DNA of 64,000 bases, from assembly GCF_964204645.1 (NCBI RefSeq), contig NC_134035.1, positions 1,688,001 to 1,752,000 of the forward strand, given 5' to 3'. The notes under the pieces are model-generated. The model saw nothing but the letters and a program-made list of their open reading frames with translations. It did no database searches and was not told the DNA's origin. The position numbers were made by a program, and so were the translations under genes. This stretch comes from Tubulanus polymorphus. Taxonomy: Eukaryota > Nemertea > Palaeonemertea > Tubulaniformes > Tubulanidae. Shown here one piece after another: positions 6,501 through 18,500 of the stretch; position 1 is the stretch's first letter, and every line of letters begins with the position of its first letter.

Positions 6501-9500
6501 ATTTATAATCATCCTCTCTTCACATGTTTTGATGAAAACTCCCGGAGATTTTGAATTGACGGTGAACTAAAACATGAAGATTAGGCACTTTATTGTTATA
6601 CTTAGAAAGTGATCATCAAGACTTCACTGAACCGAGGTGAATTGTCTGGTAGTGGTTCAGGGTTACCGATTGATGCATGCATTTCATTATCTTGCATTGC
6701 AAAATGCTTAATTCGTCTTTGCACATAACTTCTTCTGATCCTGCAGGGCAGACTTTGATTTTGATTAGGAAAAAAAACGATGATAATTTTCAATGGATAA
6801 TTCTAATGAATGAGTTGGAAAGCTTTGTATCATTTAGCCTTTGATATTATTGTGATGGTGGTTGTTAATCATTTCAGGGTTTTCAAGTACTACGTTACTA
6901 AAGCTATTCATGATTGATATATATTTCAGGGTCGCGGGTTCAATACGGGCGTGATACTGTTAGATCTGAATAAAGCTCGCGAGGTCAACTGGATGCAGAT
7001 GTGGAAGCTGATCGCCGAACGCGAACTGATGACGATGTTGAGTACGTCGCTCGCCGATCAGGATATCTTCAACGCGGCACTCAAACAACATCCGTATCTC
7101 GTGCATCGTATGTCGTGTCAGTGGAACGTACAACTCAGTGATAATACTCGCAGCGAGTTGTGTTACAGCGAAGTCTCCGATTTAAAGGTAAACGTTAAAT
7201 CACAAGAATCTGTTCTAACAAACCTTACGTTTTGACAAATTTTTAACTCTGTGAAATCTGCTAGAATTTATTTGGACAAACCTTCCGTTTGCGGAGCTGC
7301 CAACTGTTCCTGATTTTCAGTATTTGTTACTCTTTAATGATGAGAAATTATGATTTGGTTTGTTTGATGCTTATAGAAATATGAAAGATGTTACTGAGGG
7401 TCTTACTGTTGATTACTGATTAATTTGAACAGAAATATGAAAGACGTTACTGAGGGTCTTACTGTTGATTACTGATTAATTTGAACAGAAATATAAAAGA
7501 TGTTACTGAGGGTCTTGCCCCCTTGATTAGTAATTAATTTAAAAAGGAAGGAAAATGAAAGGTTTTACAGAGGGTTTTACCCCCCTTGATAAGTGATTAA
7601 TTTGTACGGAAATATGAAAGATGTTACTGAGGGTCTTACTGTTGATTAATTTGAACATTTTCTTTCATATTTCAATGAAATGTTATTGAAAAAAATTCAA
7701 TTTGCTACTGATAATACATTTCAGAGGTTGGCAGCCATCTGTTTGCCAAATTCTCAACTCAGTGAAATATTTACTGAAATTTCTATCCACATTTCTCGGA
7801 ATTTGTAGATCATTCACTGGAATTCACCGAAGAAACGCAACGTCAAAAACAAACACATCGAATTTTTCCGTAATTTGTATTTGACGTTTTTGGAATACGA
7901 CGGTAATTTGCTGCGGCGTGAACTGTTCGGTTGTGGAGTTACGCAGAACACGGACGTTAAAGAACAGGTCAGTCGAAACAGCACGTTTTACATAGCAAAG
8001 TGAAAATATTGAATTCGCTTATTGAACCAATACGTGCTCCCTGGGTGGACCGAATGCCATAGAGATCCTACCACAGCATAGATCTCTGTTCAAATAAACT
8101 CAGTTTCTATATACAGTTCACTTCAGTTAACTTGGGTCCCGCTGGCTCCGGGCAGTCGTAGCAATGATGAGTTGTCATCGCAAGAATTCGACTAGAAAAT
8201 TTTTTAACGTTCTGTCGAGGACATGTGATAATCCATGGCAATCAGCTCGGAGGCTAGTACATAGTCTACTGTAGTTAACCAGCATTGCCAATCAGATATC
8301 ACATTTCATTTCTATTCATGAAATTGCCATAAAAAGTAAATGATTGTCATTTTCAATGAGCGTTGATTCCTTCGTATGATCCCTTCTGAATTTTTCTTGA
8401 AAAATCCCTACTCCAAGTAATTACAAAAAAACAGTCCAGAATATTAACCATACTCAGAAGTCGGATATTTGGTTTCATAGATGAATCTACAATTTGATTG
8501 GGTTGAGCAGTAATTGAAGAATATGACTGATTCTATCTGGGAGATTTAATAGATCCGTACTCCAAGTAATTACAAAAAAATAGTCCAGAATATAAACCGT
8601 ACTCGAAATGTTTTTGATTGTAGTTGAGTGCTTTGAACGAAGAGGACGAATGTTACGATTTCCGCCGCGAGAAAGTGCTCGTACATCGTACGCACTTGTA
8701 TTACATATCGTATGACTACGAGCCGCGTACGGACGACGTGACGCTCGTCACGCAGCTCAGCATGGATCGTCTGCAGATGATCGAATCGATCTGCGAACAC
8801 TGGGAAGGCCCGATCAGCGTCGCGTTGTATATGTCCGACGCCGAGGCGCAGCAGTTTCTGCGGTACGCGCAAGGATCGTTGATTCTGATGCAGCGACGCA
8901 ACGTCGGTTATCACATCGTTTACAAGGATGGAGTAAGTAGAACGATAATAGGTCGTCAAACTGGCCAGGGATGGATTGGACAAATCTGAGCTGACGTTGA
9001 ATGGTCTTTTTATTCAGTCTGGGTTTGTCCATTCTAAAATGGAACAGACCAATTTAGAACAGACTATTTGTTAGTGTGAACAATCGGTGCATTCTTGGAA
9101 TGGTCACCAAAAAGATTTAGAATGTTTTGAAAACATAGTGTGTTTGCAACTATAGGCATCATCAGGAATTTTTGGAGGCGTCTCAGATTTGTGCGGAAGT
9201 ACATGTTTGTGTACAACAGCATCGCTCACATCAACAAGGAATGTTGGTCAGAAACCCTTATTTGGTTTCATAGATGAATATGATACAAATTGCTTGGGTT
9301 TAAGCGGTTATTGTAGAATATGACTGATTCTATCTGGGAGATTTAAAGGTCCTGAGAAGGACCATTGATTTCCGGGAAATTCAACAGTTCAGAAGTCTCC
9401 ATCCATCGGATCTATCGCCAAACAGAACTGTCTAAGTTCATCCATCTCATCAGCTTTCTTCCTCGCATATTCATAATAGACGAATCTCATTCCTTCTAGA

Positions 9501-15500: not shown

Positions 15501-18500
15501 CCTTCTCAGGACCTTTAAATCTCCCAGATAGAATCAGTCATTTTCTACAATAACCACCAAACCCAAACAAATTGTATCAGATTTGTCTATGAAATCACTG
15601 TGACGCTCCTTGAAATCAATGGTTCTTCTTAGAATCCTTCAGATAGAAGAATAAGTTCGTATTCAAAATGAACTGATGCTAACTACTTGATGAACCCGAG
15701 CAATTTTCAGATTTCATTTTAACGACAATTGAATTTTTCGGGTATTATTTCTTTCAGTTGTTTTATCCGGTGAACTATCTGCGTAACGTCGCGTTGAAAC
15801 AGGTTCAAACTCCGTACGTGTTTCTACTGGACGTCGACTTTCTGCCGATGTTCAACATGTACAACTACGTGAGAAAAGCCGTTTCGATGATTAACATCGC
15901 GACAGAGAAAAAGGTATATATTTCTTCGTAGACAGGAATAGCAATGTCATTGAGAGAAACCCACAATATCAATTCAAACAGCTGTTATTGCATTTTTTTT
16001 TGTACATACCCTTCCACCCATCTTTGTATGACATTCATCAAGACTGGAAATAGTCTCAACTGATTACAAGCAATAAGTTAATAAATCAGTACCCATTAAT
16101 CTGTAACACCAGGGGCCAGTTGCATAGTCATGGCCTAGACTTAAGACCAGTCTAATACCAACTTAGTTCTATAGCCAATCTAACAACTTAAGACCAGTCT
16201 TAAGATTTAGGACCACTTTTGGTCTTAAGTCACGACCGTGTAACTGGCCCCTGGGGCAGATTCGAGGACTTGTTATGAAGGTTTTGTGACACATTTGACC
16301 GCATTTTTGTTAATTCATTGAAAAGGCATATTTGGAGGTGCATAAGCAATTAAGACGTCGCCTTTGAAATTTCGTGTATCGGTCGGATGCATTTTACAGC
16401 ATTTCTTAAAGTAGAAAACTTTTCCTCATTCTCTACTAATTGCACAAGAGAAGTTTACAAGATTGAATCAAATCAAGGGTAGTAAAAAAGTTAGGAGTTT
16501 ATTCAATTGTTTCTTTTGGGTCAATCGCAAAATTGTTACTTTATCAGAACTTGAAGAAAACTTCGATTTTAACGGAGATATTTTGAAGATTTTATTCTAC
16601 ATATTCTTTTTATCCATTTTCAAGGCTCTGGTTGTTCCTGCGTTCGAGACGCAACGTTACAAACTCGATTTTCCGAAGTCGAAAGCTGAACTGATTTCGA
16701 TGTTAGATATGGGTACTATAGTAACATTCAGGTATAGTGTAGTTACGTAATCTAGTGTATATATATATATATATATATCTTTATTTACGTGTCATCTCGA
16801 TAGACAAGCCAGCCTATAATAAGGCTTACAAGACACATTGACATTTACAAGTACAACAAACATGTGACAAACTGGTACAACTAATTCAGATTGGATCTAG
16901 TGTAAAATTATCGGTTTAAATCTGATGGATTGAATTTTTGGTGTAAATCGATTATTTTCTATCAATAGATATCACGTTTGGCCTAAAGGACACGCTCCGA
17001 CTAATTTTGCTAAATGGAGAACAGCGACTATGCCTTATTCGGTAAGACGAAATTTACACTTTTCTCAAAAAGATTACGCCATCCATAGATTCACTGTCGC
17101 TTCGGGGTTCCAGTTGTATAGCCGTGTATGTTGCATTATCCATAGATTCACTGTCGCTTCGGGGTTCCAGTTGTATAGCCGTGTATGTTGCATTATCCAT
17201 AGATTCACTGTCGCTTCGGGGTTCCAGTTGTATAGCCGTGTACGTGTCTTACTGAGCATGGCCATTGACCTGGAAAACCTGGAAAACTCAGGGAATCAGA
17301 AAAATCTAGGAAATAGATAATCAGGGAAAACTCCGCAAATTTGATAAATTTTGCAAGAAAACCTGGAAAACTCAGGGATTTGGATTATGTTATTGATCCC
17401 GTGTTTCTCAATCAATATACGTGATTCAATGAAAAATAAAGCGTAACATTTTTTAAACCAAGAAATTCCTTGGTGCTGGGAACTTTGTGATATTATATTG
17501 AAAAATCAGGAAAAACTGAGGGAATTTGTAGATTTGTGGAAAGCGGCCATACTGTATACCTTCTTTCTTAGGTTCAACTAGTGGTAACTATAAAAGGCCT
17601 TCTCGTATATTTTCCTTGCAGGTAGCTTGGCAACCGGATTTTGAACCATACGTAATCGTACCCAAAGACGTTCCGTTGTACGACCAAAGATTTGTCGGGT
17701 TCGGGTGGAACAAAGTGTCACATATAGTAGAACTCGATGCTAAAGGGTATGTAAGCGTATTGTGTTTATTGCTGTTAATGTGGGTATCAATTCACTGTCT
17801 GGACACTAATTAGCAGAACCCACAGTTGATGACTTGATAATTTATTCTAATCTGACAGTTTCAGAGTTTATCAAAACAACGTCCTCAAAAATGCTATTTT
17901 TTATTCTCTGATGATGGAGTTAAGATAAACTCTGAAAGAAATTGTCAGATCTGAATCAATTATTAAGTAATCAAGTAGTGTGGGTTTTCTCATTAACTCT
18001 GGTCAAGTCTGGGTACTTTCCATCAGATATGCACCATTTAAGCGTGGGTGGATGGACACTTGAATGTAGATAAAATGACCAATGTCCGGTGTATAAAATT
18101 TATTGGGAATGCCTTATGTGAAGCCTGAACAAGATGAGAAATTAGGGGAATAGTGATAAAGTATTAAATATCTGAGGTGTGCAGGGTCCGGACTGTTGAA
18201 TGAAACATACATATAAATGATCTTGATTACCTGTGGAGAAGCAGAATGGTTGAAAATGAAGTTTTAAAAGCTATAGAAAAAAGTTGTTTATTTCATAATT
18301 TCGAATATGAAATCCAGTAAATCATATTAAAAAGATATTACAAAGACTTCCATTTAAGTTTATAGATCAACTGTAGAACCAATTAAACGGCCTTGCGCTT
18401 GTCTCAAACACCTCAATTGAAATCGACGGTTTCTTATTTCATTTTCAGCTATGAATTCGTAGTCTTACCGAATGCATTTATCATTCATATGCCTCACGCT

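Follow-up and report, generated by a model that had tools for sequence, protein, structure and literature searches.

Small non-histone genes with histone-type 3′ ends in the nemertean Tubulanus polymorphus

This study concerns four small genes, and the dispersed family to which they belong, in the marine palaeonemertean ribbon worm Tubulanus polymorphus. The genes lie in a stretch of 64,000 nucleotides (nt) of contig NC_134035.1 (positions 1,688,001 to 1,752,000, RefSeq assembly GCF_964204645.1), called here the window, and an initial annotation had described each of them as having a TATATAA box, 95 or 96 codons and a histone-type stem-loop (hairpin) 25 nt after the stop codon. All four were found where that annotation had put them, as uninterrupted open reading frames of 95, 95, 96 and 96 codons with the hairpin GGTCCTTCTCAGGACC exactly 25 nt after the stop codon in every one; the distance from TATATAA to the ATG, given there as 57 nt, measured 56 nt in all four. 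Judged on genomic sequence only, this arrangement of 56 nt, an unbroken frame and 25 nt to the hairpin fits an intronless layout. Past the hairpin, and starting 7 nt beyond it, there is a purine-rich stretch resembling the histone downstream element (HDE), so that the ends read GGTCCTTCTCAGGACC-TTTAAAT-CTCCCAGATAGAATCAGT; the initial annotation included neither this element nor the further family members nor the other families that share this kind of end. The parts of the four genes are listed below in window positions, with the frames taken from a check of the sequence, the TATATAA boxes from the sequence, the stem-loops from a motif search (0 mismatches) and scans with two covariance models, RF00032 and R1, and the HDE-like elements from alignment with histone ends.

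9389..9676, minus strand, open reading frame of copy 1, 95 codons
10558..10845, plus strand, open reading frame of copy 2, 95 codons
14051..14341, minus strand, open reading frame of copy 3, 96 codons
15182..15472, plus strand, open reading frame of copy 4, 96 codons
9733..9739, minus strand, TATATAA of copy 1
10495..10501, plus strand, TATATAA of copy 2
14398..14404, minus strand, TATATAA of copy 3
15119..15125, plus strand, TATATAA of copy 4
9348..9363, minus strand, histone-type stem-loop of copy 1
10871..10886, plus strand, histone-type stem-loop of copy 2
14010..14025, minus strand, histone-type stem-loop of copy 3
15498..15513, plus strand, histone-type stem-loop of copy 4
9323..9340, minus strand, HDE-like element CTCCCAGATAGAATCAGT of copy 1
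10894..10911, plus strand, HDE-like element of copy 2
13985..14002, minus strand, HDE-like element of copy 3
15521..15538, plus strand, HDE-like element of copy 4

The hairpins had been reported to match the histone consensus at all 16 positions and on the sense strand only, and this held: all four matched GGYYYTTHTHARRRCC with 0 mismatches on the sense strand, with its six pairs and four-base loop, against 2 mismatches on the antisense strand, and they were the only exact matches in the 64-kb window. The motif by itself, when up to 2 mismatches are allowed, is not uncommon (14 occurrences in the window against 7.9 expected, with 4 of 100 shuffles reaching 14), and weight is therefore placed on the exact match, the position, the covariation and the downstream element. 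The core histone genes of the same genome provided the yardstick. H4 genes form an array on C10, at 7 places, and in one stretch of this array (L033) the ends of H4, H3, H2A and H2B read GGTCCTT[A/C]TCAGGACC followed by CCCAGAAAG[A/G]GCC[A/G]GT. The H3 hairpin of T. polymorphus is identical to the window hairpin, and a CCCAGAAAGAGCCAGT-like downstream element is common to the window genes and the species' own H2A, H2B, H3 and H4; given how the window ends read, both hairpin and downstream element are therefore shared with histones. The model R1, built from the four core-histone ends only and spanning hairpin and HDE, gave 41.4 bits for each of the four window ends (E 5.3e-11 in 126,032 bases comprising the window, 16 paralogue loci and L033; E-values are rough, the calibration being short), and the next-best match inside the window scored 16.6 bits. 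The purine-rich element after the window hairpin is thus, on a model that covers both parts, like that of the species' own histones.

The window genes (L001-L004) belong to a family with 25 places in the genome, 20 recovered by protein searches and a further 5 when a homologue served as query, dispersed over many chromosomes. A strong R1 end, taken as 24.5 bits or more, was present at 15 of them (L001-L005, L007, L008, L009, L011, L015, L018, L020 and L098-L100). One member, L020, carries three hairpins in a row, 25, 99 and 147 nt after the stop codon, the first two exact. The hairpin stem covaries across the family: in an alignment (A4) of ten distinct family ends, with the window counted as one, L009 and L017 left out and L099 and L100 omitted as repeats of L098, 96.7% of cells pair and there are two-sided changes in 8 cells, at 3 of the 6 pairs, while the covariation score, the percentage paired and the cell count were each matched by 0 of 500 shuffles. 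When ends of other genes were added to give 28 distinct ends, two-sided changes were seen at 4 of 6 pairs, a number that 12 of 500 shuffles reached, and 98.2% of cells paired, a share reached by 0 of 500. The reading frame is under purifying selection in 10 of the 14 family pairs compared, with dN/dS of 0.08-0.25; one other pair was identical, two had saturated dS, and the last is taken up below. Phylogenetic analysis of 38 proteins, which omitted L002, L099, L100 and 29 of 45 database proteins, recovered a 16-member group (support 100/99) that contains the window genes and mixes members with and without the hairpin, and hairpin-bearing L018 and L020/L098 fell outside this group. L016, which has no hairpin, clustered with homologues of other origin (88/73, not starred). 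It is likely, from these patterns, that the hairpin end was lost in some family copies.

The encoded protein is not a histone. For two window copies and nine paralogues there was no Pfam family over cut-off and no match to H1, H2A, H2B, H3 or H4, and the same scan did recognize the species' own H2B, H1 and H1-like proteins. By sequence, the best match in PDB had an E-value of only 1.3. A profile search returned 45 homologues; the named ones belong to Mytilus, Pinctada, Paralvinella and Tubulanus, with a weak match in Brachionus, and most others are on unnamed contigs. Molluscs and annelids thus have homologues. The genome also has a Hox-cluster gene with a Lox5-like parapeptide, as would be expected of a spiralian. 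Two scans of viral contigs found no relative, and a viral origin was set aside. AlphaFold2, with 38 sequences, predicted a confident two-helix hairpin (residues 3-43 and 48-89, mean pLDDT 91.1), for which Foldseek found 0 matches in PDB at E<=0.001; what it listed were helical hairpins and coiled coils. Net charge over the final 25 residues is -5 or lower in 29 of the 45 homologues. A role tied to chromatin would be a guess, and so would the idea that early embryos need the protein as a partner of chromatin or replication matched in dosage. The sole protein named for Tubulanus among the 45 (P0004, LOC141898434) is the open frame of L016 on C2, which has no hairpin and, over the 300 nt upstream, no TATA box, and the hairpin-bearing copies are absent from the 45. 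That only L016 is listed would fit annotation from poly(A)-selected RNA, and filters against single-exon genes would give the same pattern.

The histone-type end is not confined to this family. Across the genome, the joint pattern of hairpin and HDE at up to 2 mismatches occurred at 75 places against 34 in the reversed control; its 31 exact matches comprised 26 in the histone array and 5 outside, and a form with a 9-nt gap and a slightly looser hairpin gave 11 against 2 at 0 mismatches. Twenty joint-pattern places outside the array were taken for inspection. Five were histone genes, namely H1 at L070, L072 and L073, H1-like L069 and H2A-type L083 (L072 and L069 called by Pfam, the other three by eye), and seven were small RING-like frames, often rich in Arg and Gln, or their frameshifted relatives (L066, L067, L071, L074, L076, L077 and L078). 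The rest were a 241-codon RING-like frame (L082), a short frame (L075), four places without a long frame (L068 and L079-L081) and two that looked like chance (L084 and L085, for which R1 gave nothing at E<=1). R1 scored L066 and L067 at 64.0 bits, near the H1 level of 60.7-62.3; L071, L074 and L076-L078 had 56.5-60.1, L069 45.4, L082 41.2, L083 33.0, L075 32.4, L079-L081 22.9-27.9 and L068 15.8 bits. The end of L066, at 64 bits on R1 and over the Rfam cut-off, is thus more histone-like than the window ends.

The RING domain itself is weak by Pfam (best E 4.7e-4, under cut-off), and a protein-database search with one member gave no relative at E<=0.001. There are 25 RING-like places in the genome, a set that does not contain L076, and many have internal stops. 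Among 12 RING-like places with the 3′ flank at hand, 10 had a strong R1 end (30.3-64.0 bits), L104 a weak one (12.1) and L105 none; the orphan RING-like family with the histone-type end comprises L066, L067, L071, L074, L076, L077, L078, L103 and L106-L108, on C1, C3, C4, C8, C9 and C12. Since RING-like and other unrelated loci carry ends matched by R1, the histone end has either become attached to unrelated genes on more than one occasion or has spread. A second conserved downstream element, GCCTCGCTTTTTGCTTC-like and about 10-20 nt past the HDE, was seen in L033, L066, L077, L103 and L106-L108 and is common to core histone, H1 and RING-like ends. There were also dispersed repeats with broken frames (L086, L087 and L088, on C4, C5 and C6; 30.0-37.2 bits on R1) that close in hairpin and HDE; a FLYWCH or MULE-type transposase was considered for them from a likeness, and Pfam found nothing for two of the frames. 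The hairpin GGCCCTTATAAGGGCC with an HDE occurred at four places (L079, L080, L081 and C5:16393422-16393452), with no long frame ahead of it in the first three and a tandem repeat upstream in L080.

In histone processing, SLBP on the hairpin and the U7 small nuclear RNA (snRNA) on the HDE direct cleavage between the two, giving a non-polyadenylated, replication-linked mRNA. The genome encodes the SLBP RNA-binding domain (PF15247), over cut-off in two exon-level matches (C2:3287142-3287264 and C2:3287439-3287528). By analogy, SLBP would bind the GGTCCTTCTCAGGACC hairpin of family transcripts, the U7 ribonucleoprotein would pair with the purine-rich element starting about 7-10 nt downstream of it, and cleavage between them would leave an mRNA without a poly(A) tail. 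Because of such cleavage and the lack of a tail, production would be limited to replicating cells, that is to S phase, the oocyte and the cleavage embryo. We favor, at a probability of about 0.8, the reading that the four window genes are members of a dispersed family of small intronless genes for a helical-hairpin protein, whose transcripts are finished by the histone pre-mRNA machinery and are not polyadenylated. It draws on the hairpin, the downstream element, their likeness to the species' own histone ends, the covariation, the purifying selection and the SLBP domain, with cleavage, tail status and timing predicted from cis elements. The initial annotation had proposed a non-histone protein family with histone-style expression, and this is partly supported: R1 recognition, stem covariation, the shared downstream element and the lack of a histone match in Pfam bear out the family and its 3′ end, and expression in S phase or germline, like the lack of poly(A), is a prediction. 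At the level of sequence, non-histone genes with complete histone-type 3′ ends are real and unexpected, and what they suggest is known histone-end machinery acting on new clients. It is also rather probable that this pathway serves a whole regulon, comprising at least two unrelated non-histone families (the helical-hairpin and the orphan RING-like), the longer RING-like frame and some repeats, all yielding SLBP- and U7-processed, non-polyadenylated, replication-coupled mRNAs.

Several observations weigh against the favored reading. The evidence throughout is genomic. U7 snRNA was not securely found, RF00066 giving none over cut-off. On RF00032, the Rfam histone 3′ stem-loop on which the initial annotation had proposed to score the hairpins, the window hairpins reach 22.2 bits, under the gathering cut-off of 34 (0 at cut-off in the window) and lower than the species' own core histones; among seven family loci scored, L007, L020, L018 and L015 had 23.4, 26.5, 27.0 and 28.1 bits, and L005, L011 and L098 were without a match at E<=1. 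Family copies that keep the frame without the hairpin, named in the initial annotation as a point against it, do exist: the R1 end is weak at 2 of 25 places (L006 12.4 bits, L017 14.2 bits) and has no match at 8 (L010, L012, L013, L014, L016, L019, L101 and L102, the last two covering only about 200-260 nt of 3′ flank), against the 15 with strong ends. L009 has an altered loop with stem and HDE kept, in L017 the loop is longer and the HDE near-perfect, and the AGAAAG core is absent from the HDE-like elements of L005, L007 and L020. In A4, the count of pairs with two-sided changes (3) was matched by 98 of 500 shuffles and that of further pair types (4) by 494, and dN/dS for L010/L013 was 0.99. 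The missed RF00032 cut-off says little in T. polymorphus because the four core histones miss it too, at 25.7, 26.3, 27.8 and 31.7 bits; it was reached by RING-like L066 and H2A-type L083, at 34.8 bits. Because the cut-off was not reached, the window end is called functionally like the RF00032 element and not a member by score.

The search for U7 yielded some candidates. L021 had the best RF00066 score, 28 bits and under cut-off, and was rejected, its 5′ end not being complementary to the HDE by eye. The pattern GCTCTTTC...TTTNTCTNG matched 17 times against 30 in the reversed control, with no convincing snRNA among 8 regions folded, and GCTCTTT...ATTTGTCTNG matched once against 7. That one match, a weak candidate at C6:19333153-19333172 (L109), has GCTCTTTGAGATTTGTCTTGG and then a hairpin; its pairing with 14 HDEs ranges from -3.0 to -13.9 kcal, with just 14.2 bits on RF00066 and a pattern not above the reversed control.

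Within the window, the four genes form two divergent pairs, as initially described, and both proved to be inverted repeats with arms of 543-563 nt and 97-98% identity. Their placement in an intron of LARGE1 was confirmed by adjoining open frames that match PDB LARGE1 chains. Comparison of family upstream regions showed a palindrome, TGACAGGTTGTCA in all four window copies; as TGACANNNTGTCA it lies 133-143 nt ahead of the start codon in 7 of the 20 regions compared, against 0.15% of shuffled ones. A link of this palindrome to TALE homeodomain factors is possible.

9297..10937, divergent pair 1, inverted repeat with arms 9297-9839 and 10395-10937, 97% complementary
13939..15584, divergent pair 2, inverted repeat with arms 13939-14501 and 15022-15584, 98% complementary
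9805..9817, minus strand, promoter palindrome TGACAGGTTGTCA of copy 1
10417..10429, plus strand, promoter palindrome TGACAGGTTGTCA of copy 2
14470..14482, minus strand, promoter palindrome TGACAGGTTGTCA of copy 3
15041..15053, plus strand, promoter palindrome TGACAGGTTGTCA of copy 4
8624..8986, plus strand, open frame with a LARGE1 exon upstream of the host intron (E 4.6e-49 to PDB LARGE1; bounds are those of the frame, not the exon end)
15755..15916, plus strand, putative LARGE-type exon downstream of the host intron (from translation, with its identity taken from neighboring exons)

A decayed extra hairpin, GGTTCTTCTTAGAATC, lies at 15621-15636 on the plus strand with 1 mismatch to the motif, and the part upstream of it resembles the 3′ flank of copy 4; it is probably what remains of a further duplicated end. 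At 13314-13428, in the space separating the divergent pairs, there is a short inverted repeat with arms of about 29 nt and a weak match to a microRNA model, perhaps a small mobile element.

An alternative explanation could be that the hairpin is transcribed but that the mRNAs are mainly polyadenylated downstream, with no real coupling to replication, for which H2A.X-type genes, with their two alternative 3′ ends, offer a model. Of the 14 copies among L001-L020 whose hairpin is strong or weak, 5 (L003, L004, L006, L015 and L017) have AATAAA or ATTAAA within 497 nt of the stop codon. The other 9, including L001 and L002, had no such signal, but 4 of 6 copies without a hairpin did, and the histone-like HDE has been retained; we consider this alternative unlikely. 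Less probable again is that genes and ends are mobile or recently amplified DNA, in which the histone end is a captured passenger, a terminator at best, and many copies are dying. The dispersal over many chromosomes, the near-identity of L098-L100 (three copies on two chromosomes), the internal stops in RING-like copies, the near-identical inverted repeats of the window and the same signal on the repeats L086-L088 and L079-L081 are all consistent with this, but it would not account for purifying selection in most of the compared pairs, a stem kept despite sequence change, or homologues in other spiralian phyla, and four other open frames in the host intron had no Pfam match (no wider search for mobile elements was made). 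Moreover, the expected cleavage point precedes the HDE and copies still have this element, so that they would have spread as DNA and not via processed mRNA. Hairpins arising by chance, or an inverted repeat at the DNA level with no bearing on histone processing, could draw on the frequency of the two-mismatch motif but are ruled out, for practical purposes, by the R1 scores and E-values, the covariation, the fixed position after stop codons, and joint-pattern and 9-nt-gap counts well above reversed controls, with most exact joint matches in the histone array.

If the favored reading is true, it has several implications. Replication-dependent histone genes are described, in PMC1924863 and in similar terms in PMC12775136, as the only known makers of hairpin-ended mRNAs without poly(A), and no non-histone mRNA with a histone stem-loop was found in the titles and abstract openings searched, a coverage mostly outside subscription journals. 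The histone-only rule for hairpin-ended, tailless mRNAs would then be broken in at least one animal, and the targets of SLBP and U7 would extend past histones. Such genes would have been overlooked wherever annotation relies on poly(A)-selected RNA, and it would be worth seeking genes invisible to poly(A)-selected RNA sequencing in spiralians. What else needs to be made in step with histones during cleavage becomes a testable question.

Among known systems, the short intronless early-zygotic genes of fast-cleaving embryos are likewise short, intronless and TATA-driven, but their mRNAs are polyadenylated, which differs from the processing proposed here. Lophotrochin and trochin, small spiralian-specific proteins of molluscs, annelids and a nemertean according to PMC7441323, resemble the family in being lineage-restricted as far as the searches reach. 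The same source gives lophotrochin a DUF4476 domain, whereas Pfam scans of the two window copies and nine paralogues gave no such match, which rules out that identity. With metazoan replication-dependent histone genes, the window genes share a TATA box, the lack of introns, membership in a multigene family, a hairpin identical to that of the species' own H3, a short distance from stop codon to hairpin and an HDE-like element at nearly the same spacing. They differ in that the protein is not a histone, the genes are dispersed and not in the C10 tandem array, the HDE core is AGATAG and not AGAAAG, and the RF00032 score is lower than that of the core histones. The species' own H1 genes and H2A-type gene outside the array (L083, L070, L072, L073 and L069) are, like the window genes, dispersed and provided with hairpin and HDE, and differ in that they encode histones.

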